Positions 28,164 to 63,376 of a DNA stretch of 64,000 nt are shown here, in pieces. The position numbers and the translations under genes were made by a program. The first letter of the stretch is position 1. Every line of letters begins with the position of its first letter. The notes beneath the pieces are model-generated. The model saw only the letters and a list, made by a program, of their open reading frames with translations, ran no database searches and had not been told where the DNA came from. This stretch comes from Niallia sp. Man26 (GTDB lineage: Bacteria; Bacillota; Bacilli; Bacillales; Cytobacillaceae): contig NZ_CP095743.1 in assembly GCF_022049065.2 (NCBI RefSeq), forward strand, positions 387,001 to 451,000, read 5' to 3'.

Positions 28164-28698
28164 TATGCATCTAATTTTAAAGTGCGGGGGAGCTATATGT
28201 AGAATTTAAAAGGGGAACTATTAACAGCATAAATAGCAACTAGACTTAGGGATTAATGTGTAAGGATGAAACTATTTATTTTTTTATGGAGTTATTGCTT
28301 AAAAACCATTGTTTCTTTCCAATTTTTTTAGTTGGAGCTATTGCCATCACTATCACCGCCTTGAGTTCATATACGATAAGTAAAGAATTAATCACCTGTG
28401 CATCAAGAAATGTGCCCCATTTTTCTCTTAGTCTTATCTAATGATTCTTGCGTTCTATATCTATCTTCACTATCTCATAACCATTTCTCCTCCTCTATGC
28501 TTCCGTTAATGAGTAGTTGATTATTCTGTGAACAACAAGATAACTTAAAGGGAAGCCTCTAGTTAAAAGTCGAAATTCCTCGAAAAATAAAGCTATTCAG
28601 TTATTGACAGAGCCTATACAGCAACTTATAATTAACCTGTAAATTGAAAGGGTTTTCACTTTTGGGTTATCACTTTATGTGATATTTTTTTGATGTAT
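28164..28698. other. Gene-free stretch before the mdx promoter
   Basis: About 530 bp without a recognisable gene. A 61-codon frame at 28256-28441 opens with GTG, has no ribosome site and no family resemblance, so I do not call it. The region is AT-rich and may be the worn remains of a lost gene. I see no RNA gene in it. Confidence 0.5.
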
Positions 28699-28716
28699 TG
28701 ATAAAACGTTTAATCA
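28699..28716. promoter_or_regulatory. LacI-type operator 1 upstream of mdxE
   Basis: TGATAAAACGTTTAATCA pairs at 8 of 9 positions around a central CG, as LacI-family operators do. It is identical to operator 2, with centres 67 bp apart. Confidence 0.75.
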
Positions 28717-28736
28717 TTTTTTACTTAAATATATAG

Positions 28737-28766
28737 TTGGTTTTATTCCTATATTTTTTACATAAT
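28737..28766 (+). promoter_or_regulatory. Probable mdxEFG promoter
   Basis: TTGGTT, an 18-nt spacer and CATAAT end exactly where operator 2 begins, so a repressor bound there would block the start site. Confidence 0.5.
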
Positions 28767-28783
28767 GATAAAACGTTTAATCA
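28766..28783. promoter_or_regulatory. LacI-type operator 2 at the mdxE start site
   Basis: A second TGATAAAACGTTTAATCA. The nearby LacI-type regulator gene (32602-33651) is the obvious candidate binder; CcpA could also recognise the CG-centred sequence. Confidence 0.75.
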
Positions 28784-28826
28784 ATTTTTTTATGCTGCAA
28801 AATTATATAAAAGGTGGGGAAAATGA

Positions 28827-42858: not shown

Positions 42859-43809
42859 ATGATGAGCAGGATTGTCACTGTAGGTGAACCGATGGCCCTT
42901 TTTGCTGCAGAGTATGAGGGGCTGTTGGAGGAAGCAGAGAAATTTAGTCGGTTTGTAGCAGGCGCAGAAGTAAACTTTTCAATTGGAATGGCTCGGCTAG
43001 GTCATCAAGTAACTTATATAACTAAGCTTGGAAATGATCCGTTTGGTAAAAATATTCAAACATTTTTAGAAAAGAACAATATTGATACTAGTTTTGTTTC
43101 CTATGATGATAAGCATGTTACAGGTATGCAATGGAAGCAAAAGGTTGTTAAGGGAGATCCAGAGGTGTTCTCTTTAAGAAAAAACTCAGCAGCCTCAAAT
43201 ATGGATATTCAATCAATCAGCTCCTTGCAGTTTGAGGATTTCGATCATCTGCATTTAACAGGCATTCCTCCCGCTTTATCTCCAAGCTGCCGGGAGTTGG
43301 TTTATGAATTGGCACAAAATGCTAAGCGATCAGGAGTACCGATATCGTTTGATCCTAATATTAGACCAGCTCTCTGGCCGGATAAACAAGAGATGGTTAA
43401 AGTGATTAATAACGTTGCAGTACTAGCAGATATTGTCTTCCCGGGAATGGAAGAGGGAAGGATTTTGACAGGCAGAGAAACGCCAGAGGGAATAGCCCAA
43501 TTCTATCATGATGCTGGAGTAAAGACAGTAGTCATTAAACTCGGACCTCAAGGTGCTTTTACAAGCTCATTAGATAAGAGTTTCTATACAAAAGGCTTTA
43601 AGGTCAGCAAGGTGATTGATACGGTAGGGGCAGGCGATGGATTTGCGGTTGGGGTTACAAGTGCATTGCTGGAAAATCTGCCTTTGGAAGAAGCCATTAT
43701 AAGAGGTACAGCCATCGGCGCACTTGCCGTGATGTCCCCTGGAGATAATGATGGACTGCCGGACAGGGAAAATCTGAATGCCTTTATGGAACTTAAATTA
43801 AACAGATAA
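42859..43809 (+). CDS. kdgK: KdgK: 2-keto-3-deoxygluconate kinase
   Basis: A 316-residue PfkB-family sugar kinase making KDPG from KDG. It has VTVGEPMALFA at the N-terminus, the GAEVNFSIGMARLG sugar-binding segment, SFDPNIRPALW and the PfkB signature DTVGAGDGFAVG with catalytic D260. AAGGAG at 42846-42851 fits ATG 42859, with ATG 42862 next to it. It is co-transcribed with kdgT and closed by a bidirectional terminator shared with kdgR. Confidence 0.95.
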   Translation: MMSRIVTVGEPMALFAAEYEGLLEEAEKFSRFVAGAEVNFSIGMARLGHQVTYITKLGNDPFGKNIQTFLEKNNIDTSFVSYDDKHVTGMQWKQKVVKGDPEVFSLRKNSAASNMDIQSISSLQFEDFDHLHLTGIPPALSPSCRELVYELAQNAKRSGVPISFDPNIRPALWPDKQEMVKVINNVAVLADIVFPGMEEGRILTGRETPEGIAQFYHDAGVKTVVIKLGPQGAFTSSLDKSFYTKGFKVSKVIDTVGAGDGFAVGVTSALLENLPLEEAIIRGTAIGALAVMSPGDNDGLPDRENLNAFMELKLNR

Positions 43810-43813
43810 ACAT

Positions 43814-43862
43814 AAAAAAAGAGCAATGGAATGCCTTGATAGGCAATCCTTGCTCTTTTTTT
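43814..43862. terminator. Bidirectional terminator between kdgK and kdgR
   Basis: AAAAAAAGAGCAA and TTGCTCTTTTTTT frame an inner hairpin TGCCT/AGGCA, giving T runs in both directions. Confidence 0.93.
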
Positions 43863-43866
43863 ATGT

Positions 43867-44631
43867 TTATGAGCTGATCCAGCCGAAGTGCCGGGAAATT
43901 TCTGTACTGTATTGCTTTACTTTATCAACCAAGATGTCATTAACAGCATCCATTGTAACCCTTGTACTAGGGCCTGAGATGCTAAAGCTTGCGATAATGT
44001 TGCCTTCATGATTGTAAATAGGAGCGGCAATACAGCGTAAGTCTTTTTCATTTTCGATATTATCCAGTGCAAAACCTTGCAATTTCACCTTTTCAATTTC
44101 TTCTCGAAGACTTTCCTTTGAAGTAATAGTGGCAGGTGTCTTGCTTATGAATTCGATTTTGGACAGCAGTTCTTCCTGGATATCAGAATCAAGCCCTGAT
44201 AACAGTACCTTGCCGACCGCTGTACAGTACATTGGCGCCCTGCTGCCGATACGGGAAAACATACGGATTGTTTGAGTGCTTTCAATCTTGTCCACATAAA
44301 GGACTTCTTCGCGATCTTTAATACATAGATGGATTGTTTCGTTTACTTCATTTGACAATTTAGAAAGAAAAGGCCTTGCTGTTTGGACGAGGGTATTGCT
44401 GTTTAAGAAGTTCCTAGCGAGAAACAGTGTCTGCAAACCTAATTTATATTTGTCCGTATCTGCATTCTTTTCCACATAGTTCATGTTTGTCAATGTTGCT
44501 AAGAGCCGGTGCACAGTGCTTTTGGAGAGTCCAACCTGTTCAGACAGCCGGGCGATTTGAAGTCCGTCTGGATATTCAGCCAGTTTGTTTAAGATGGTTA
44601 ATGCTCTTTCAAGTGATTGAACGTTTGACAT
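43867..44631 (-). CDS. kdgR: KdgR: IclR-family repressor of KDG use
   Basis: A 254-residue IclR-type regulator. The winged helix (about 1-65) has LQIARLSEQVGLSKSTVHRLLATL and the effector domain (about 75-250) has SRIGSRAPMYCTAVGKVLLS and RCIAAPIYNHEGNIIASFSISGP. It converges with kdgT-kdgK, so it is the natural regulator of those genes. B. subtilis uses a LacI-type KdgR, whereas this IclR type recalls enterobacterial KdgR. The effector is probably KDG or KDPG, by inference. Confidence 0.9.
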   Translation of the reverse strand: MSNVQSLERALTILNKLAEYPDGLQIARLSEQVGLSKSTVHRLLATLTNMNYVEKNADTDKYKLGLQTLFLARNFLNSNTLVQTARPFLSKLSNEVNETIHLCIKDREEVLYVDKIESTQTIRMFSRIGSRAPMYCTAVGKVLLSGLDSDIQEELLSKIEFISKTPATITSKESLREEIEKVKLQGFALDNIENEKDLRCIAAPIYNHEGNIIASFSISGPSTRVTMDAVNDILVDKVKQYSTEISRHFGWISS

Positions 44632-47708: not shown

Positions 47709-47726
47709 CGATTAAGGATGATGAAA

Positions 47727-48554
47727 ATGAATACAAGTACATTGCCAAGAACTGCCGTCCTTAACAGAGAACAGATTTCTGAAACGTCAGTTACAAATAA
47801 AGAGTTAATCCTTCAAGTGAAGGATTTAGACATATATTATGGAGAAAAACGTGCAGTAAATACAATTTCAATGGATATTGAAAAAAATTCAATCACAGCA
47901 CTAATTGGACCTTCTGGCTGTGGTAAGTCGACATTCCTTCGCAGTATTAACAGAATGAACGACCTTATCCCTGGTGCTAAAGCAAAGGGAGAAATCCTGT
48001 ACGAAGGCTTAAATATCCTTGGCGATAATATTGATGTTGTTGCCTTAAGAAAAGAGATCGGAATGGTATTCCAAAAGCCGAATCCATTCCCGAAATCAAT
48101 CTATGAAAATATCGCTCATGCCTTGAAATTCTCTGGTGTTAAGAAAAAAAGTGAACTGGATGTTATTGTTGAAGAAAGTTTGACGAAAGCAGCACTTTGG
48201 GATGAAGTAAAAGACAGACTTCATAAATCTGCTTTATCATTGTCAGGCGGACAGCAGCAACGGTTATGCATCGCCCGTACAATTGCTATGAAACCATCGC
48301 TTATGCTTCTTGATGAGCCTTCTTCTGCTCTTGACCCTATTTCAAATGCGAAGGTCGAGGAGCTGATTGTAGAATTGAAGAAGGAATACTCCATTCTTAT
48401 CGTTACGCATAACATGGGGCAGGCTTCGAGGATTTCGGATAAGACAGCTTTCTTCTTGAGCGGAGATTTAATTGAATTTGACGCGACAGAAAAGATCTTT
48501 ACTAACCCATCTGTTAACAAGACAGAAGAATATATTTCCGGCCGATTTGGATAA
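47727..48554 (+). CDS. pstB1: PstB1: phosphate transporter ATPase
   Basis: A 275-residue ABC ATPase: Walker [10 protein letters not shown], the PstB Q-loop [14 protein letters not shown], signature [16 protein letters not shown], Walker [15 protein letters not shown] and THNM switch His. In-frame ATGs at 47718, 47721 and 47727; AAGGA at 47714-47718 fits the last. An N-terminal tail of about 25 residues precedes the ATPase core. It is followed 11 bp later by a second pstB, the duplicate layout also found in B. subtilis. Confidence 0.95.
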
Positions 48555-48565
48555 GGAGGACTATC

Positions 48566-49339
48566 ATGTCAACTGTTGTTGCGCAAGCACCTGTATTTGA
48601 AATAAATGACTTAAACCTTTGGTATGGTGACCACCATGCATTAAAAAATATCAATTTTCCAATAAACCGTAATGAGGTTACAGCTATTATCGGTCCTTCC
48701 GGCTGCGGAAAATCAACATTCATCAAAACGTTAAACTTGATGATTAACATGGTACCGAGTGTTAAGATGTCTGGGGAAATCAACTATAAGAACAAAAATA
48801 TCATCAATAAAAAAATCGACCTCGTCGATCTTCGTAAAAATGTCGGAATGGTGTTCCAAAAGGGAAATCCATTTCCGCAGTCCATATTTGAAAATGTGGC
48901 TTATGGTCCGAAGATTCACGGTGAAAAACGAAAAAAAGCATTAGAAGAGATTGTGGAAAAATCACTTCGTGACGTTGCACTTTGGGATGAGGTAAAAGAC
49001 CGTCTGCATAGTCCTGCTATGGGGCTATCTGGTGGACAGCAGCAGCGCCTTTGTATCGCAAGAGCTCTTGCGACAAAGCCGGATGTGCTGTTGATGGATG
49101 AGCCGACATCTGCACTTGACCCGATTTCAACATTGAAGATAGAAGAGCTGATGCTTGAACTGAAAGAAAAATATACAATTGTTGTTGTTACACATAATAT
49201 GCAGCAGGCAGCACGTGTATCTGACAAGACGGCGTTTTTCTTAATGGGAGAGCTTGTTGAGATTGATGAAACATCTAAAATTTTCTCAAGACCAGCTGAC
49301 CAAAGAACTGAAGACTATATTTCCGGACGTTTCGGATAA
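48566..49339 (+). CDS. pstB2: PstB2: second phosphate transporter ATPase
   Basis: A 257-residue ABC ATPase, clearly a duplicate of PstB1 without its N-terminal tail. Walker [40 protein letters not shown] and [12 protein letters not shown] are all intact. Both copies end in the same [13 protein letters not shown] sequence. AAGGAGG upstream. Both are likely functional; the division of labour is unknown. Confidence 0.95.
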
Positions 49340-54665: not shown

Positions 54666-55958
54666 TTATTTCTTCAGCTTATTCCAAGTTTCATCAAGTG
54701 CTTTCATTGTTTCTTCTCTTGTACTTTCTTTGCCTACATAAGCTTGCAGGCTAGAACCAAATTCTTGGCCAGCACCGTCTGGATATTTCATGAACTGCCA
54801 AGTGTATGTTTTGCCTTCTTGAGAATACTTTTGAATCTCTGCGCCTAATGGACCGATATCATCAGCACTTGCTTCAATTGTTTTGAATGCAGGTACATAT
54901 TTGAAGTCTTTTACTAACATTGTTTTAGCTGTATCAGAAGTAACAGTCCAGTTTAAGAAATCTAGAGCCGCTTCTTTATCAGCATCTGGAGCGCCATTGT
55001 GAACAACCCAGTTAGTTGGAACGTCTACCATCAATTTGTCTGATTGTGCTTCATCATCGCTAAGCGGCATTGGAATAAAGCCGACTTCCATATTAGGGCT
55101 CAATTTATCCAGCATCGGCTGAATCCAGTTTCCTTGTTGAATCATTGCTGCTTCACCTGTAGCGAATAAAGTGACCTGTGTATTATAGTCAGTTGTTAAA
55201 GGATTTTTGTTACCATTATCCAGTGTCAAGTCCAATAGATCAAAGTACTTGTTAAAATACTCATTGCCCTCAATCTTGCTCGTGCCATCATTCAAGCCTT
55301 TAATGAACGCATCTGCATCATCTTGATAAGCAAAAGGTACATTCAAGCCGTGGTTTGCAAGCACCCACCACTCGCCATAGCCGATTGAGAAAGGAGTAAT
55401 GCCCGCAGATTTTAGTTTCTCTGCTGCTGCTTCTAACTCAGTGAAAGTAGTAGGAAGGTCTGTGATGCCTGCTTTTTTGAATAGCTCTTTATTATAAGCG
55501 AAGCCGTAACCTTCTAAGTTTACTGGCTGACCGTAAAGTTTCCCATCAATTGTCATTGGAACTAAGGCACTTTCATAAGCATCCTTCACCCATGGCTGAT
55601 CAGATAAATCCTCGAGCTTATCCTTCCAAGTAATTGCTTCCTGGTAGCCGCCATTACCAAAAATATCTGGAGCTTTATTAGAAGCAAATTTAGCTTTCAG
55701 AGCAGCTGCTCCGTCTGCACCGCCTCCGACAGATTCGATATTAAAGGATACGTCAGGATGTTCTTTTGTATATGCATCTGTTAATGCTTTTAATTGATCA
55801 GCAATTTCAACTTTCCCGTTGAATATATCAACAACTACTTTTCCGTCCTTGCTGCCTGAGCTATCAGAAGCAGTTTCATTAGAACATGCTGTTGCAAGAA
55901 GAAGTGTTGCTGATAATACACCTGCTGCTAGTGAATATTTTTTGAATTTAAAACCCAT
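54666..55958 (-). CDS. Sugar ABC transporter substrate-binding lipoprotein (MsmE-like)
   Basis: A 430-residue extracellular solute-binding protein of the sugar ABC class. The lipoprotein signal ends LLATAC (Cys 25). The mature part has VVVDIFNGKVEIADQ, GGYQEAITWKDKLEDLSD, GQPVNLEGYGFAYNKELFKK and AMIQQGNWIQPMLDKL, typical of oligosaccharide binders of the MsmE type. The frame is open to 56099, but ATG 55958 with AGGAGGGG upstream is the start. It is the last gene of a minus-strand operon after the two permease genes. The nearby GH13 glucosidase suggests an alpha-1,6- or alpha-1,4-linked glucoside, by inference. Confidence 0.92.
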   Translation of the reverse strand: MGFKFKKYSLAAGVLSATLLLATACSNETASDSSGSKDGKVVVDIFNGKVEIADQLKALTDAYTKEHPDVSFNIESVGGGADGAAALKAKFASNKAPDIFGNGGYQEAITWKDKLEDLSDQPWVKDAYESALVPMTIDGKLYGQPVNLEGYGFAYNKELFKKAGITDLPTTFTELEAAAEKLKSAGITPFSIGYGEWWVLANHGLNVPFAYQDDADAFIKGLNDGTSKIEGNEYFNKYFDLLDLTLDNGNKNPLTTDYNTQVTLFATGEAAMIQQGNWIQPMLDKLSPNMEVGFIPMPLSDDEAQSDKLMVDVPTNWVVHNGAPDADKEAALDFLNWTVTSDTAKTMLVKDFKYVPAFKTIEASADDIGPLGAEIQKYSQEGKTYTWQFMKYPDGAGQEFGSSLQAYVGKESTREETMKALDETWNKLKK

Positions 55959-56046: not shown

Positions 56047-56874
56047 TTATTTGATAGAACCGCTTGTGATACCTTTGATAATATGTTTTTGCATCGCAAA
56101 GAAGAAAATCAATAATGGAATGATGCCGAGCATTAATGCGGCTAGTGCTAGATCCCATTGCTTTGTATATTGGCCAAAGAAGAAGAAGGTAGCCAAAGGA
56201 ATTGTCCGCAATTCTGGATTCTGCAAGACAAGGGATGGAAGCAGATAATCATTCCAAATCCATAAGCTGTTAAGGATAACAATTGTTACAGTGATTGGCT
56301 TTAACAGCGGGAAGACGATGCGCCAGAATAAACCGAAACGTGAACATCCATCGATAATTGCAGCTTCTTCTAATTCCACTGGTATTCCTTTAATGAATCC
56401 GTGATATAAGAAGATAGTCATACCTGATCCAAATCCTAAGTACATGATGACAAGCCCCCAGATGCTGTTCAGCAAGTTCAGGTTGCCGGCTGTCTTAATT
56501 AATGGAATCATGATGGATTGGAACGGGATAATCATTGCAGCAACAAAGGACATAAAGATGATATTAGAAATTTTCTTTTTAGTCCTTACAAGCATATACG
56601 CAGCCATTGAACAGAACACAACTAATACAATATTGCTTGCGATGGTGATAATTAAAGAGTTGCTTAGTACCTTTAAGTAATCAAGCTTTTCAAATGCACT
56701 TACATAGTTTTGGAACTGAAGCACCTTAGGCAATGCTGATGTATTCGTCAAAATTTCAGCAAATGGCTTTAAGGAGTTGGCGATTACATAATAGAATGGT
56801 ACGAGAAACACAAGTCCAATCAGTATCGCGAATATTTCCAGAATAAAGGTTTTTCCAGTATATTTGCTGCCCAT
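56047..56874 (-). CDS. Sugar ABC transporter permease (MsmG-like)
   Basis: A 275-residue MalG-type permease with six spans. The ATPase-docking loop is ELEEAAIIDGCSRFGLFWRIVFPL, and SLKPFAEILTNTSALP near the N-terminus is typical of the family. It starts ATG on the stop codon of the preceding permease (TAATG), with AAGGAGG upstream. Confidence 0.93.
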   Translation of the reverse strand: MGSKYTGKTFILEIFAILIGLVFLVPFYYVIANSLKPFAEILTNTSALPKVLQFQNYVSAFEKLDYLKVLSNSLIITIASNIVLVVFCSMAAYMLVRTKKKISNIIFMSFVAAMIIPFQSIMIPLIKTAGNLNLLNSIWGLVIMYLGFGSGMTIFLYHGFIKGIPVELEEAAIIDGCSRFGLFWRIVFPLLKPITVTIVILNSLWIWNDYLLPSLVLQNPELRTIPLATFFFFGQYTKQWDLALAALMLGIIPLLIFFFAMQKHIIKGITSGSIK

Positions 56875-57842
56875 TAGGATTCAACCTCCTTCTTCTTAGA
56901 CAGTGTAACTTGAAGGACAGAGATTGTTGCCACAACAAGGAAGAATATTAATGCTTTTGCTTCGCCAATTCCGTAGCGGTTGTTAACAAATGCTTCTGTG
57001 TAAATGTTAAGCGCTAACATTTCTGTTGACTTAAATGGGCCACCATTTGTCAGGGACAGGTTTGCGTCAAAGATTTTGAAGGAAGACGCAGTTGTTAAGA
57101 ACAGACAGATTGTTACCGCTGGCGCAACTAAAGGTAAAGTGATATGACGCAATATTTGCCATTTATTTGCTCCGTCAATCTTAGCTGCTTCAATAAGCTC
57201 TTGCGGAACATTTTGTAATGCAGCAATGTAAATAATCATAATATATCCAGCACCTTGCCAGACGCTGACAATAACAATTCCCCAGAATGCGGTATTTGCA
57301 TCTCCGAGCCATGCCAGCTCAAAGAGCGGAATGCCAGTTAACTCTCCAATTGAAGCGAAGCCTCTTACAAAGATGAACTGCCAGATGAATCCTAGCAATA
57401 AGCCTCCAAGAAGATTCGGCATGAAGAAAACTGTCCGAAGAATATTTCTTGTTTTCAGCATTTGTGTAACTAAAAGTGCTAAGCCGAAGCCAATTAAATT
57501 CGTCAATACAATGGCGACAATTGTATACTTTGTCGTCAGCAGGAATGACGCTTGAAATTGCTTATCCTCTGTAAACAAGTATTTAAAATTATCCAGTCCA
57601 ACCCATTTTACTTGTCCTGTAATGCCGTTCCAATCAGTAAAAGAATAATAGATTCCGGTAAAGAATGGGATTAAGACAATAATGGTAAAGGCGAGAAACA
57701 CAGGACCCACAAATAGTGTGAACAGCCCTGCATTTTTCAGTCTCTTTTTCTTGGCTGTTGTAATAGGCTTTTTGGTATTTCTGTTAATAGGTGTAACAAT
57801 AGTGGAATTATTATGTTCCTCTAATTTATTTTGGTTGTTCAC
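56874..57842 (-). CDS. Sugar ABC transporter permease (MsmF-like)
   Basis: A 322-residue MalF-type permease with six spans, an N-terminal basic tail, and the docking loop QELIEAAKIDGANKWQILRHITLPL. The frame is open from 57851, but that GTG lies inside the AGGAGG ribosome site; GTG 57842 has correct spacing. It is the first gene of the operon; an upstream regulatory element is described at 57889-57937. No ATPase gene accompanies the two permeases. Confidence 0.92.
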   Translation of the reverse strand: MNNQNKLEEHNNSTIVTPINRNTKKPITTAKKKRLKNAGLFTLFVGPVFLAFTIIVLIPFFTGIYYSFTDWNGITGQVKWVGLDNFKYLFTEDKQFQASFLLTTKYTIVAIVLTNLIGFGLALLVTQMLKTRNILRTVFFMPNLLGGLLLGFIWQFIFVRGFASIGELTGIPLFELAWLGDANTAFWGIVIVSVWQGAGYIMIIYIAALQNVPQELIEAAKIDGANKWQILRHITLPLVAPAVTICLFLTTASSFKIFDANLSLTNGGPFKSTEMLALNIYTEAFVNNRYGIGEAKALIFFLVVATISVLQVTLSKKKEVES

Positions 57843-57888
57843 TTTCCGCACCTCCTGTATGTATAATGTAAGTTATAAAATGATTTTA

Positions 57889-57937
57889 TGAAACGGCTTA
57901 CATTGACGACAAGGGTGGAAAATATTAAACCGCCCTT
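57889..57937 (-). promoter_or_regulatory. Shared regulatory element, msm-side copy
   Basis: On the minus strand the order is AAGGG, GTT-AATAT, TTCCACCC, then TCAATGTAAGCCGTTTCA. The same order and spacing (one base longer) occurs before the glucosidase gene at 61546-61595. The two-component genes lie between the copies, so their response regulator is the likely binder. The final GTTTCA occupies the -35 place, with a TACATT -10 about 18 nt on. Confidence 0.75.
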
Positions 57938-58087
57938 TTTAGGCGCGGTGATGATAATAGAGATATATTAAATAGGAAGAGTGTGCACAAAGCAGATAAA
58001 AGTTGCTCATACTTCCACACTTATGCTCGTACATATAGAAGGGAGGGCAGGTCAGGAGAGAACACCTTTGAACTGCTGACCAGATTA

Positions 58088-59905
58088 ATGAGATGGGGAA
58101 TCCGGAAAAAACTGATACTGCTGCTGATGATAGCGACCATTCTTCCTTTTGGAACGGGGATTATCATCACCTATTATTATACGATTGACTCTATTAAGGA
58201 AAGGTCTGTCACAACTAACTATGACTTTATTAAAAAGGGAGAAGAGGAGCTTTCTGTTTATTTAGAGGATATTGCGCAGATGTCTTCTGTATTGTACCGG
58301 TATACTCCTTTCATGAATGTGCTTGTAAATGGGATTGAGGATGACAGTTCTGTTAATGAGGAGGAGGTAAGACGACTGCTGGCGTACTTGTTTAACACAA
58401 GAACAGAAATTGAACAGATGCATCTGTACATTGATAATGGGAAAGATTCTTATACAAATTATCATAGTAAAATCAGCGGCAGGGTAAAGTATGAAAATGT
58501 TTTTGACCATCCGTACTATGCGCAATTTAAGACAAACAAGGCGGACTATTCTCTTATTGAAGCACCGCATGAAATTTACAGCTATAATAATATCTCTGAA
58601 ATTCCCAATTCAGAGAAAAATAATGTCTTAAGCTTTCATAATATAATCCGCAATATACCTGCAGAGGATTTCCTAGGTTATTTGTCGATTGACATCAATC
58701 TTTCGAGGATTGAGAGCATCGCCGAGCGCCTGTACACAGCAGGAGAAGAGGATTTATATATTGTTGATGACAAGAAAAAGATTATCTATTCTTCAACCAA
58801 AGAGGAAATTGGCAATGGAATGACAGAGGCTTGGTATGAAAAGATGCTTGATACGCGTGCAGAACAAAGCTATGAGTGGGAAGATGACGAGTTTTCCGGT
58901 GTAATCGTATTCCAGAAGTTCTCAGTTCAAGAGAATGACTGGTATATAGCAAAACGTATTCCGTATGCAATTTTATACCAGACTGCAAGAGAAACGGTTG
59001 TTATGAATAGTTTAATAGGAGTTATTGCTTTGGCAATCGTGCTGTTGGTCACATCACTCGTATCGGTAAAGGTGACAGCGCCGATTAAAGTGCTGATTGC
59101 CAATATGAAAAAAGTTGAAAGCGGTCAGCTGGAAGCAGACTTCGATTCTTTAGGCAATGACGAAATCGGGATGCTTGGGAAGCACTTTAAATCAATGATC
59201 GGAAAAATTAACTTGCTGATTGATAAAGAGTATAAGTTAGAAATCGAAAATAAGGCGTCACAGCTGAGGGTATTGCGGTCTCAGATAAATCCTCACTTTT
59301 TGTATAACAGCCTACAGTCGATAGGTACACTTGCATTAAAGTCGAAGGCAGCAAATGTATACTCCTTGTTGACATCCTTATCGAATATAATGCGGTACAG
59401 CATGAATATGCAGGAGGATATTGTTCCATTTTCGATGGAAATAAAGCATGTACAAGCATATTTATCGCTGCAAAAGCAGCGCTTTGATGAACAGTTTGAA
59501 TTCAATATCCATGTATCACCAGGCCTTGGAAATATCCTTGTCCCGAAAATGATTTTGCAGCCAATCGTTGAAAACTGCTTTAAACATGGGTTTGCAGATC
59601 AAGTTAAGCTGGCAACAATCACTATTCAAGCTTCGTTATTGAACGATTATATTGTTTTGTCGGTCAGTGATAATGGTAAAGGAGCTAGCATGGAGGAGCT
59701 TCAGGAAATCAGGCAGAAGCTCTATAAGAAGGGGAATATAGCAGAACCTGGACAAAGGGAATCAATCGGACTTAAGAATATTTATGAACGAATCCAGATT
59801 TATTATGGAAATCAAGCTGAGATGATTATCAGCGGTAAGGAAGATCAAGGATTCATGGTAGAAATATATATTCCAAAGATAATTAATGGGGTGCAGGAAC
59901 AATGA
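58088..59905 (+). CDS. Sensor histidine kinase, YesM family
   Basis: A membrane kinase of about 605 residues. A first span (about 8-30), an outer Cache-like sensor of about 270 residues, a second span (about 305-328), HAMP (KVESGQLEADFDSLGNDEIG), a His_kinase domain with the phospho-acceptor H403 in INPHFLYNSLQSIG and an HATPase domain with VENCFKHGF and SDNGKG. It phosphorylates the response regulator encoded next. The frame is open from GTG 57983; ATG 58088 lacks a clear ribosome site, while AGGAGAG at 58054-58060 lies within the frame, so the start is uncertain. Its stop overlaps the regulator start (ATGA). Such kinases often sense sugars together with a binding protein. Confidence 0.9.
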   Translation: MRWGIRKKLILLLMIATILPFGTGIIITYYYTIDSIKERSVTTNYDFIKKGEEELSVYLEDIAQMSSVLYRYTPFMNVLVNGIEDDSSVNEEEVRRLLAYLFNTRTEIEQMHLYIDNGKDSYTNYHSKISGRVKYENVFDHPYYAQFKTNKADYSLIEAPHEIYSYNNISEIPNSEKNNVLSFHNIIRNIPAEDFLGYLSIDINLSRIESIAERLYTAGEEDLYIVDDKKKIIYSSTKEEIGNGMTEAWYEKMLDTRAEQSYEWEDDEFSGVIVFQKFSVQENDWYIAKRIPYAILYQTARETVVMNSLIGVIALAIVLLVTSLVSVKVTAPIKVLIANMKKVESGQLEADFDSLGNDEIGMLGKHFKSMIGKINLLIDKEYKLEIENKASQLRVLRSQINPHFLYNSLQSIGTLALKSKAANVYSLLTSLSNIMRYSMNMQEDIVPFSMEIKHVQAYLSLQKQRFDEQFEFNIHVSPGLGNILVPKMILQPIVENCFKHGFADQVKLATITIQASLLNDYIVLSVSDNGKGASMEELQEIRQKLYKKGNIAEPGQRESIGLKNIYERIQIYYGNQAEMIISGKEDQGFMVEIYIPKIINGVQEQ

Positions 59906-61500
59906 AAGTTTTGATTGTGGATGATGAAAAGCATGTCAGGGAAGGCATTCGGCTTCTTGCAAATTGGGAAGAGAACAATATTAATGAGATCTATGAGGCA
60001 AGCAATGGGGAAGATGCAATCGAGCTTATTGAACGCTACAAGCCAGAGTTGATTTTTTCTGATATGAAGATGCCGAAAATGGATGGAACGAAATTGCTGG
60101 AATGGATTAAGCAAAATCAGCCGACTAGCAAGACTGTCGTCATTACAGGCTATGATGACTATGATTACATGCGAAAAGCCATTCATTTCAACAGCTTTGA
60201 TTATTTACTAAAACCTGTAGATCCAGAGATATTAAATAATACCCTGAAGAATGCCGTGGAAAGATGGAACGAAGAAGAAGTGGACAGGAAAAGGAAGGTG
60301 AATTCAGATCAGCTTATTAATAAGATGAAGCCAGCATACCGGGACAGAAAGCTGACCCATTTTTTAACAAGCAGATCTGTCAATGAAGAGGTCTTACGCG
60401 AATTCCAATTCTATTTAGCAAGTGAATACAGGGTTGCTGTTATGTGCATCACAGAAAAAACAATTGAACAGTTTAACAGAGACAGGGAGTTAGCTTACTT
60501 TTCCATCTTGAATATTATCACGGAGGCACTTAGTGAAAGAAGGAGCGGGATTGCGTTTCGCTATCTGGCTAATAAAGGTGAAATCGCGATTATCCTGTGG
60601 AATAAATCGGAGGATGTTGACCCTTTACTCACAGAAATTTATAAAAAAATTCAGCATACATTTGAAGTTTCCTGTCCGATTGCAGTTGGCGGTCCTGTCG
60701 GGGAGCTTGCGAAATTAATGGACTCTTATGAGGCGGGGAAAGAGCTGCTATATTCCATGAATGTTTTAGAAAAGCGTGCAGTTAGGGTGTACAGCGGGTC
60801 TTTGCTGCCAAAGCTAGAATGGAAAAGTTTAATGAAGCACAACTCAGCGATTAAAATGGCGATGCAGACAGGAGAAATTGGTGCTTTTCGAGAATTATTA
60901 GAGCAAGTTGCAGCAGAATATACCGAAAATGGATTTCTATCATGGAAGCAGCTTTTACATTTTGAGAAGGAATATAGAGTCGTCGGAGAACGGTGGTATA
61001 AGAACTATCAAATAGCTTTCCCGGAGGCATGGGAAAGTGCTGAAAACAGAACAGATAGCTTTTTTGAGTCAGATGGAAGCTTTCAGCTAGAAGCATATAA
61101 AACATATATAAAAAGAGAAATTGCTGTGTTTCTGAAAAAGGTGAAGCGGGCTTCTGCAACGAAAGAAAGCAGCATCATCTACGAGATTGAAAAGTATTTG
61201 CACGCGAATTTCAACAGAGATGTCAAATTACAGGAGCTTTCCGAACGCTTTTTTATCAGCAGGGAATATATCTCAAGAAAATTTAAAAAGGAATTCCAAG
61301 TAACCATTACGGATTACTTAACGAAAATCAGGATTGAAAAGGCTAAATCCCTGCTTGTAAACAGCTCGCTAAAGATATATGAGATTGCCAGTATGATAGG
61401 CTATCAGGATGACAAGTACTTCCGCAAGCTGTTTAAGAAAACAGTTGGTGTCACTCCAAATGAATATAGAGATGCACAAATCACCAATACGTTAAAGTAA
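59902..61500 (+). CDS. Response regulator with AraC-type output, YesN family
   Basis: A 532-residue regulator. The receiver domain (about 1-120) has the acidic pair D7-D8, the phosphorylated Asp 54 in IFSDMKMPKMDG and the Lys in YLLKPVDP. A long central region (about 130-420) follows, and a C-terminal AraC/XylS double helix-turn-helix (about 427-528) with ISREYISRKFKKEFQVTITDYL and KIYEIASMIGYQDDKYFRKLFKKTVGVTPNEYR. It starts on the kinase stop codon. It is the leading candidate for binding the paired elements at 57889-57937 and 61546-61595. Confidence 0.95.
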   Translation: MKVLIVDDEKHVREGIRLLANWEENNINEIYEASNGEDAIELIERYKPELIFSDMKMPKMDGTKLLEWIKQNQPTSKTVVITGYDDYDYMRKAIHFNSFDYLLKPVDPEILNNTLKNAVERWNEEEVDRKRKVNSDQLINKMKPAYRDRKLTHFLTSRSVNEEVLREFQFYLASEYRVAVMCITEKTIEQFNRDRELAYFSILNIITEALSERRSGIAFRYLANKGEIAIILWNKSEDVDPLLTEIYKKIQHTFEVSCPIAVGGPVGELAKLMDSYEAGKELLYSMNVLEKRAVRVYSGSLLPKLEWKSLMKHNSAIKMAMQTGEIGAFRELLEQVAAEYTENGFLSWKQLLHFEKEYRVVGERWYKNYQIAFPEAWESAENRTDSFFESDGSFQLEAYKTYIKREIAVFLKKVKRASATKESSIIYEIEKYLHANFNRDVKLQELSERFFISREYISRKFKKEFQVTITDYLTKIRIEKAKSLLVNSSLKIYEIASMIGYQDDKYFRKLFKKTVGVTPNEYRDAQITNTLK

Positions 61501-61545
61501 ATTAAAAGTAACGTCTATATTGTTTTAATCACTAATATAAGGGTA

Positions 61546-61595
61546 AAGGGAAGTTCAATATATTCCACCCTATTTGCTCAATGTAAGCAGTTTCA
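61546..61595 (+). promoter_or_regulatory. Shared regulatory element, glucosidase-side copy
   Basis: AAGGG, GTT-AATAT, TTCCACCC, a 7-nt spacer after CCC, and TCAATGTAAGCAGTTTCA. The last block differs from the msm copy at one base of 18. Its end (GTTTCA) is followed 17 nt later by TAAAAT (61613-61618), which looks like an activator-dependent promoter with a poor -35. Confidence 0.75.
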
Positions 61596-61705
61596 ATCTG
61601 GGGGATATGCTTTAAAATATAAAGGAAACATATCAATTATTAAAAAGGCTTTTTTGTAAACTAGCAGAGTGTTTGGACTTTTTAAAATAGATGAGGTGCA
61701 TATAG

Positions 61706-63376
61706 ATGAACAAAAAATGGTGGAAAGAATGCGTAGCCTATCAAGTATATCCGCGAAGCTTCATGGACAGCAACGGCGATGGAGTGGGAGATTTAAAGGG
61801 AGTTACCTCCAAGCTTGATTACTTGAAAGAGTTAGGCATTGATGTTATTTGGCTATCCCCGATGTTTAAATCACCGAATGATGACAATGGTTATGATATC
61901 TCAGATTATCAGGATATTATGGAGGATTTCGGTACGATGGAAGACTTTGATGAGCTTCTTCACGAGGTACACGCTAGAGGGATGAAGCTTATACTTGATT
62001 TGGTTATTAATCATACGAGTGATGAGCATCCTTGGTTTATTGAATCTCGTTCATCTAAGGACAATCCAAAACGAGATTGGTATATATGGAGAGATGGCAA
62101 GGATGGGAAAGAGCCGAATAACTGGGAATCGATTTTCAGCGGCTCTGCCTGGAAATATGATGAGGAAACAGAGCAATACTTCATGCATATATTCTCGGGG
62201 AGACAGCCTGATTTAAACTGGGAAAACCCTGAGGTGCGGGAAGCTCTCTATAACATGGTTAACTGGTGGCTTGATAAGGGGATAGACGGTTACCGGGTTG
62301 ATGCTATTTCTCATATTAAAAAAGCACCAGGCTTGCCGGATTTATACAATCCTGACCATTTGGAATATGTTCCGAGTTTTCCTTACATGATGAATGTACA
62401 CGGAATTGATGAGTTCTTAACAGAATTTGCTGATAAAACAATCAAAAACTATGACATTATGACAGTCGGAGAAGCAAATGGTGTCGGCCTTGATGATGCG
62501 GACAAATGGGTAGGCGAAGAAAACGGTTATTTCAACATGATATTTCAGTTTGAGTTCTTAAGTTTATGGAATAAAGATGATGAAGACAAAGTCGATATTA
62601 TTGCCTTAAAAAAGGTGCTGTCCAAATGGCAAAAGGGTTTAGAAGGCCGAGGCTGGAATGCTTTGTTTATCGAAAATCACGATCAGCCGCGCAGGGTGTC
62701 TTCCTGGGGAAATGATAAGCGCTATTGGAAAGAGAGCGCGAAAATGCTTGCATCTATGTATTTCTTAATGAAGGGAACACCATTTATTTATCAAGGTCAG
62801 GAAATTGGCATGACAAATGTTCAATTCCCTTCTATTGATGATTATGATGATGTTGGCATGGTTAACTTCTATAAAGTGGAATCGGAAAAGGGAGTTCCTC
62901 ACGAGGATATTATGAAGGTTGTCTGGAAGCAGGGCCGTGATAATGCCCGGACGCCGATGCAATGGAATGCAGAAAATATGGCTGGCTTTACAACATCAAA
63001 CCATACATGGATAGGAGTAAATCCTAATTATCTGGAAATCAATGTAGCTAATCAAGAGCAGGACCCTGATTCCATCCTTTCGTTTTATAAAGAGCTGATT
63101 AAACTGAGAAAAGGAAGCCCTCTGTTCACTTACGGAAGCTACCAGCTTTATTTGGCGAATCATCCAAGATTATTTGTATACACTAGAACTTTAGGTAAAA
63201 GAAAGGCTATCATTATTAATAACTTCAGTGATAAGCCGACCATTTTCAAGGTTCCATCAGAGCTTGTGTATCAATATTCTGAGCTGGCTTTAACTAATTA
63301 TGAGGTTAAGGATAAAAAGCTCCGCAAGAAAACAGCTCTTAAACCATTTGAGACAAGAGTATACTTTATTTCATAA
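61706..63376 (+). CDS. malL: Oligo-1,6-glucosidase / alpha-glucosidase (GH13_31, MalL-like)
   Basis: A 556-residue cytoplasmic GH13 enzyme. The opening WWKECVAYQVYPRSFMDSNGDG is typical of oligo-1,6-glucosidases and trehalose-6-phosphate hydrolases. Catalytic residues are D199 in DGYRVDAISHI, E256 in TVGEANGVG and D326 in ENHDQPRR. It hydrolyses isomaltose-type or sucrose/maltose-type sugars; the sequence does not fix the bond preference. The promoter carries the shared element, so it is probably co-regulated with the ABC importer at 54.7-57.8 kb. ATGAGGTG precedes ATG 61706. Confidence 0.92.
   Translation: MNKKWWKECVAYQVYPRSFMDSNGDGVGDLKGVTSKLDYLKELGIDVIWLSPMFKSPNDDNGYDISDYQDIMEDFGTMEDFDELLHEVHARGMKLILDLVINHTSDEHPWFIESRSSKDNPKRDWYIWRDGKDGKEPNNWESIFSGSAWKYDEETEQYFMHIFSGRQPDLNWENPEVREALYNMVNWWLDKGIDGYRVDAISHIKKAPGLPDLYNPDHLEYVPSFPYMMNVHGIDEFLTEFADKTIKNYDIMTVGEANGVGLDDADKWVGEENGYFNMIFQFEFLSLWNKDDEDKVDIIALKKVLSKWQKGLEGRGWNALFIENHDQPRRVSSWGNDKRYWKESAKMLASMYFLMKGTPFIYQGQEIGMTNVQFPSIDDYDDVGMVNFYKVESEKGVPHEDIMKVVWKQGRDNARTPMQWNAENMAGFTTSNHTWIGVNPNYLEINVANQEQDPDSILSFYKELIKLRKGSPLFTYGSYQLYLANHPRLFVYTRTLGKRKAIIINNFSDKPTIFKVPSELVYQYSELALTNYEVKDKKLRKKTALKPFETRVYFIS

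Follow-up and report, generated by a model that had tools for sequence, protein, structure and literature searches.

A conserved promoter element flanking a YesM-type two-component system in Niallia sp. Man26 is the predicted operator of its AraC-type response regulator

Two-component systems made up of a YesM-type sensor kinase and an AraC-type response regulator control the uptake of sugar oligomers, as do YesM/YesN of Bacillus subtilis and AraPST and XynDC of Geobacillus, all of which have targets other than those considered here. To our knowledge, the operators of AraC-type response regulators are poorly defined. In the passages that deal with it, XydR of Ruminiclostridium cellulolyticum is described as binding to the upstream regions of two target loci but not to that of its own genes (PMC3572039). 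In the corresponding passages on Caldicellulosiruptor bescii, tandem-repeat sites are predicted ahead of promoters for three of five AraC-type two-component regulators, which are inferred to be activators (PMC8579813). Here we analysed a stretch of 64,000 nucleotides from Niallia sp. Man26 (NZ_CP095743.1, positions 387,001 to 451,000 of the forward strand; hereafter the window), a strain with a genome of 5.7 Mb, in which the genes of such a kinase and regulator lie between two copies of one promoter element. We argue that this element is the predicted operator of the response regulator encoded between its copies, and that the regulator would thereby turn on both the import of alpha-glucosides and their hydrolysis by a cytoplasmic alpha-glucosidase; judging from sequence comparison, we put the probability of this reading at about 0.85.

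A first-pass annotation of this DNA had reported two similar elements of about 50 bp, one at the promoter of the importer and one at that of the glucosidase, and had held their likeness to be improbable by chance. Both are indeed where it placed them. When the window was compared with itself, 57889-57938 aligned with 61595-61545 at 42 of 51 identical columns with one gap (49.1 bits), a score above the largest self-match in every one of 30 dinucleotide-preserving shuffles (33.7-42.8 bits), which makes a chance likeness improbable. The features of the segment, with the basis of each assignment in brackets, are as follows.

54666..55958, minus strand: sugar-binding lipoprotein with some 56% identity to PsMBP of Paenibacillus sp. 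FPU-7 (domain matches, relatives)
56047..56874, minus strand: CUT1-type permease 2, PermG (open reading frame list, domain matches)
56874..57851, minus strand: CUT1-type permease 1, PermF (open reading frame list, domain matches)
57865..57870, minus strand: -10-like TACATT of the importer promoter (read from the sequence; placement relative to the element compared in relatives)
57888..57903, minus strand: stretch one mismatch from a catabolite-responsive element (cre), within copy 1 (cre consensus match)
57889..57930, minus strand: element copy 1, 42 bp, upstream of the importer operon, its 3' end overlapping the -35 TTTCAT at 57893-57888 (self-alignment, profile, relatives)
58088..59905, plus strand: YesM-type sensor kinase, 605 amino acids (domain matches, starts in relatives)
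59902..61500, plus strand: response regulator with receiver, middle region and AraC-type DNA-binding domain, the proposed binder of the element (domain matches, conservation)
61553..61595, plus strand: element copy 2, 43 bp, upstream of the glucosidase gene, with one additional base between its halves and its 3' end overlapping the -35 TTTCAA at 61591-61596 (self-alignment, profile, relatives)
61581..61596, plus strand: stretch one mismatch from a cre, within copy 2 (cre consensus match)
61613..61618, plus strand: -10-like TAAAAT of the glucosidase promoter (read from the sequence, relatives)
61706..63376, plus strand: GH13 alpha-glucosidase, closest solved relatives 2ZE0 and 5ZCB (domain matches, structure-sequence comparison)

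That a YesM-type kinase and an AraC-type response regulator are encoded between the copies, as previously read by eye, was borne out by Pfam. The HAMP, His_kinase (PF06580) and HATPase domains of the kinase all exceed their cut-offs, as do Response_reg (94.5 bits) and the C-terminal HTH_18 helix-turn-helix (HTH) domain (77.7 bits) of the regulator; the Cache-type sensor of the kinase matches dCache_1 with an E value of 1e-07, yet at 32.2 bits it lies below the cut-off of 45. Two gene starts were revised. For the lipoprotein, 56099 was dropped in favour of 55958, an ATG behind AGGAGG that gives the length seen in relatives. The kinase start at 57983 was dropped in favour of the ATG at 58088, where most compared relatives start; this start is likely, not certain, and some relatives (loci L039, L063 and L083) also open earlier in frame.

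The conserved element reads GTTCAATATTTTCCACCCTA-NNN-GTCAATGTAAGC(C/A)GTTTCAT. Its downstream block TCAATGTAAGCNGTTTCA occurs without mismatch only twice in the host genome, and a sequence-only profile, built from 40 operator sequences with the two window copies among the inputs, scored the copies at 52.2 and 51.1 bits and the next-best place in that genome at 16.0 bits. The common blocks listed in the first-pass annotation were thus confirmed as a conserved element, except AAGGG, which lies outside it because columns -10 to -1 upstream are unconserved (none of them exceeds 0.31 bit in 102 canonical short-spaced copies); AAGGG as an element part, and the AAGGG/CCCTT inverted repeat of copy 1, were rejected on this ground. 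The 1-nt change in spacing is likewise present between the window copies, but it is a local matter: 112 distinct copies were used for the promoter-geometry and cre comparisons, 107 of them short-spaced and only five long-spaced, and the long form is that of the glucosidase promoter in the window and in four close relatives (L039-L042). From the flanks of the regulator gene, with up to 9 mismatches allowed, 78 distinct sites were collected, of which the 73 short-spaced ones hold 70.8 bits of information over 43 columns, 23 of them invariant. This mismatch limit makes the set less biased than our wide scan, in which an exact pattern was sought in an 84,980-species collection and gave 82 stretches, with 80 loci listed. 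No element match was found in a mononucleotide shuffle of 524,931 bases.

The placement of the element relative to the promoter is nearly constant too. Its end, GTTTCA(T), doubles as the -35, and TAAAAT/TATAAT starts exactly 17 nt past the element without mismatch in 81 of the 112 copies and with one mismatch in nine more (90/112). Copy 2 fits exactly, with TAAAAT starting 17 nt after GTTTCA, and in copy 1 TACATT starts 18 nt after it, one base beyond the usual place, in agreement with the 17-18 nt noticed earlier. The overlap with the -35 together with the nearly fixed distance to the -10 is as expected of an activator site. A consensus promoter scan was uninformative (13 sites against 12.8 expected).

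If the regulator acts through this element, the two should occur together in relatives, and indeed they do, which answers the first of the checks proposed at the outset. The regulator was searched in a family sample of 193 genomes at an orthologue threshold of E <= 1e-60; 55 genomes matched, and removal of G118 (39% identity) and G155 (31%) as paralogues left 53. Flanks of up to 9 kb were fetched for seven paralogues or partial matches and for the 50 orthologues beyond the window whose identity reaches 50% or more. The element was present in all 50 orthologue flanks: the best copy has no more than 2 mismatches in 45 of them, and the other five (L084-L088) have a common form with 6-7 mismatches. 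It was missing from all five flanks of the paralogues of 31-40% identity (L089-L093). The remaining two regulators, of about 260 amino acids (L094:9001-9786 and L095:9001-9768), keep the receiver and the HTH domain without most of the middle region, and the canonical element still adjoins them. Across the family sample, a strong profile match (at least 43 bits) was found in 53 of 53 genomes with a regulator orthologue against 3 of 140 without. Of these three, G154 has a fragmented assembly, and its kinase gene, beside the element, runs off the contig. Another, G010 (Bacillus sp. V3-13), is a relic with an element and a truncated binding-protein gene, in which neither a match to such a permease nor a regulator orthologue was found. 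The third is G118, the genome with the 39% paralogue. At E <= 0.001 the profile matched 58 genomes, 56 strongly and two weakly. The weak match in G005 (22.9 bits) falls within a coding sequence and was put down to chance, and that in G161 (25.5 bits) is a decayed element copy before a ThuA operon in a genome without the regulator.

Since two near-identical copies stand within 4 kb of each other, one might take them for a repeat that is dispersed or mobile and plays no part in regulation. This we reject as next to impossible, for the 58 matching family genomes hold one to three copies each, copies stand before the same gene kinds, and their flanks are unconserved.

Behind the loci of the wide scan, a regulator of 54-60% identity was found in 10 of 12 genomes tested, the two without it being the Bacillus sp. 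V3-13 relic and an assembly labelled Sphingomonas. The latter locus (L137, JARUXA010000050.1, Sphingomonas sp. PsM26) is a short contig carrying this Bacillales importer promoter and is probably contamination from Bacillales. Another, labelled Paenibacillus sp. BSR1-1 (L156, NZ_JAQMWQ010000009.1), appears to be G151, which is in the window's own family and in the genus group of Neobacillus records; the label looks outdated. At L044 (G125) the kinase, permease, Gfo-Idh and GH13 genes appear broken into several frames, by decay or by sequencing errors.

The genes that follow the element are of few kinds. A looser scan of the 80 listed loci gave 85 occurrences, in which overlapping loci may count one twice, and these stood next to permease 1 (44), ThuA (31), GH13 (6), a related binding protein (2), the binding protein (1) and Gfo-Idh (1); every classified occurrence precedes either this importer, one that is related or decayed, or GH13/ThuA genes. 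The second copy often stands before an operon of ThuA, two Gfo/Idh/MocA oxidoreductases, a xylose-isomerase-like TIM barrel protein and a GH13 enzyme. At L079:16127 (G109) a second, weaker copy precedes a PfkB-type sugar kinase and a GH13-domain gene, and the regulon thus seems to include other sugar genes in some strains.

As a control for the target genes themselves, we took the genomes whose Gfo/Idh gene shares 78% identity or more with its counterpart in L045 and inspected 2 kb upstream. Besides G154, ten regulator-less genomes have a ThuA/Gfo-Idh-type operon, and eight of them are without the element (best 13-16 mismatches, like other element-less loci), although two of the eight, G112 and G068, showed no ThuA gene beside the Gfo/Idh gene. 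The remaining two are G161, with its decayed copy (8 mismatches), and G118, with an intact one. Because eight of ten regulator-less loci lack it, the element does not merely follow its target genes. A different protein, for instance the one-component AraC-type regulator that many relatives encode close to the ThuA operon (as at L045:8157-8927), might bind the element, the two-component system being a mere neighbour. We hold this to be very unlikely: in the window and in L039-L042 no such gene was seen next to either copy, although not all genomes were searched for one, and similar AraC-type genes adjoin ThuA-type operons that are without the element (L247, L255 and L256).

Furthermore, the regulator and its site vary in a related manner. 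Among 46 canonical regulators, the window's included, mean identity is 80.1% in the HTH domain and 81.2% in the receiver against 54.8% in the middle region. Arg508, in the second HTH, is found in 46/46 canonical, 5/5 variant and 2/2 short regulators and in 0/5 paralogues. The five variant regulators (about 50% identity; L084-L088), which form one clade, share His438, Gln482, Glu483 and Ser518, at which the canonical proteins have Asp/Asn, Lys, Ser/Thr/Ala and Thr, respectively, and these same five share the divergent element. From the aligned sequences, then, site and regulator diverge together in one clade.

Several observations weigh against the element being the operator of this regulator. 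Linked inheritance accounts for part of the association between them, because the regulator genes and copy 1 adjoin. G118 is an exception, with an intact element before a ThuA operon in a genome that has only a 39% regulator paralogue. Among 40 regulator-bearing genomes with a close Gfo-Idh gene, the element precedes that gene in 33 and not in seven (G119, G120, G134, G135, G147, G171 and G173), which shows that regulon membership varies; in G171 and G173 a copy stands before GH13 instead, and in G147 before a ThuA-GH13 pair. Nor does the element precede the ThuA operon of the window genome itself: L250:6470-10321, on contig C1, is a ThuA/Gfo-Idh/TIM-type operon beside an AraC-like gene, and is presumably under other control. 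The direct repeat within the element is weak as well. TCAAT repeats 22 bp apart within it, which would suit two AraC-type domains in tandem, and the P values of the direct repeat in shuffles were 0.10 (canonical consensus) and 0.017 (variant) for the longest run and 0.24 and 0.36 for total matches. With such statistics we did not accept the repeat as proof of a dimer site, and the tandem, bipartite reading of the element is only suggestive.

A further point of this kind is the likeness of the downstream half to a cre, the consensus of which we take to be WTGNAARCGNWWWCAW, including the central CG. The 112 copies differ from it by one mismatch in 108 cases and by two in four, and none is perfect. 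One could thus conceive a composite site, in which the regulator takes the upstream half while the cre-like ATGTAAGC(C/A)GTTTCAT over the -35 is bound by CcpA or a different member of the LacI family, such that firing needs the inducing sugar to be present and the preferred sugar to be absent. Occupancy by two proteins would account for the high information content, 70.8 bits over 43 columns, and of only seven one-mismatch cre matches on both strands of the window, two are inside these element copies. Nevertheless we consider the composite site rather unlikely. The central G is absent from 106 of the 107 canonical copies, whereas 1173 of 1303 LacI-family motifs have a central CG in the part of a motif survey that bears on this (PMC4052901). 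The sole canonical copy with this G (L079:16127) also breaks the CA arm, as do the five variant-clade copies, all of which have it. In the regulator-less G161, a single case, the downstream half decayed with the rest of the element. Also, because the copies share ancestry, their cre likeness amounts to few independent events. A perfect cre box was found at none of 16 element-less ThuA-type loci scanned, and there is no sign there of a takeover by CcpA. The likeness may be a coincidence, a weak CcpA site or the avoidance of one. In the last case the operator would be held one step from CcpA recognition, regulator contacts being selected and CcpA binding selected against or weakened in the same downstream half while lineages break the cre at different bases, to the effect of preventing crosstalk or of a graded dual-input operator; we offer this as a speculation of low probability.

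With the response regulator as the binder of both halves, the following course of events may be proposed. A sugar-related signal would activate the YesM-type kinase, which would phosphorylate the response regulator; the latter, which probably dimerizes so that each half of the element receives one AraC-type domain, would cover the weak -35 by its contact with the downstream half and recruit RNA polymerase, and importer and glucosidase would be switched on together. That the regulator acts through the element on import and hydrolysis, as put forward in the first-pass annotation, is supported as far as comparison goes.

The likely cargo can be narrowed from the proteins. The GH13 enzyme matches the alpha-glucosidases 2ZE0 and 5ZCB over its full length and has their DAISHI segment, the Ala of which we take to mark 1,4- over 1,6-specificity. 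The binding protein agrees with PsMBP in 218 of 392 aligned columns (about 56%), and for PsMBP the relevant passages give binding of maltose (31.5 nM) and trehalose (47 nM) (PMC13311272). Seven PsMBP contacts to the first two glucose units are kept (Lys62, Glu64, Glu162, Trp211, His216, Trp291 and Trp398), and Phe61, Tyr96, Asn328, Trp400, Phe401 and Glu407 are not; Phe61, Trp400 and Glu407 are themselves among the first-two-glucose contacts, and their loss speaks against an importer of the PsMBP type. The same passages give a similar PsMBP transcript level on maltose, trehalose and chitin sugar, which speaks against a simple substrate reading (PMC13311272). In Paenibacillus sp. JDR-2, an ATP-binding cassette (ABC) transporter with ThuA/ThuB-like genes is up about 8- to 10-fold on maltose, according to the passages on it (PMC4765114). 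The importer would thus carry a maltose- or trehalose-type disaccharide.

Elsewhere in the window, two adjoining ABC ATP-binding genes at 47718-49339 (PstB-like by eye) appear to be a tandem duplicate (341/504 DNA columns identical) and are followed by a PhoU-like gene. A strong inverted repeat of about 65 bp lies at 43806-43870 (58/66 columns), and direct and inverted repeats of 40-94 bp are clustered at 28683-28789.

Among the papers listed by searches of the open-licence literature, we found no earlier report of the regulator or the element. For a YesMN-type system that occurs under nine or more Bacillales genus names, the analysis yields a predicted operator together with its targets and the likely class of substrate, and the 78 distinct regulator-flank sites, the divergent clade with its own site variant and the one decayed regulator-less site make the recognition rules directly testable. 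Among described systems, XydS/XydR of R. cellulolyticum is akin to it in that a sensor kinase and a 532-amino-acid receiver/AraC-type regulator adjoin their targets and common sequences lie on and upstream of the predicted -35 boxes; it differs in that the targets are cellulosomal hemicellulase and related genes and the common sequences, in the passages concerned, are short and give no clear operator, so that the two are likened by description (PMC3572039). The C. bescii AraC-type two-component regulators, as described in part of that study, similarly exert local control of CUT1 sugar importers, but belong to another lineage and serve other substrates, and are also likened by description, not by motif (PMC8579813). 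The PsMBP importer shares the closely similar binding protein, most of its disaccharide contacts and two adjoining permease genes, whereas the window protein departs from PsMBP where the third and fourth sugar are contacted; the passages concerned make no mention of a two-component system, an operon or a response regulator (PMC13311272). The maltose-induced transporter of JDR-2 is accompanied by ThuA and an oxidoreductase, a combination of gene kinds that the present regulon likewise unites in relatives; the passages on it give no regulator or operator, and it is likened by gene kinds (PMC4765114). Seen against these systems, the element and its regulator are an unusually well conserved example of an ordinary YesMN/AraC-type switch.

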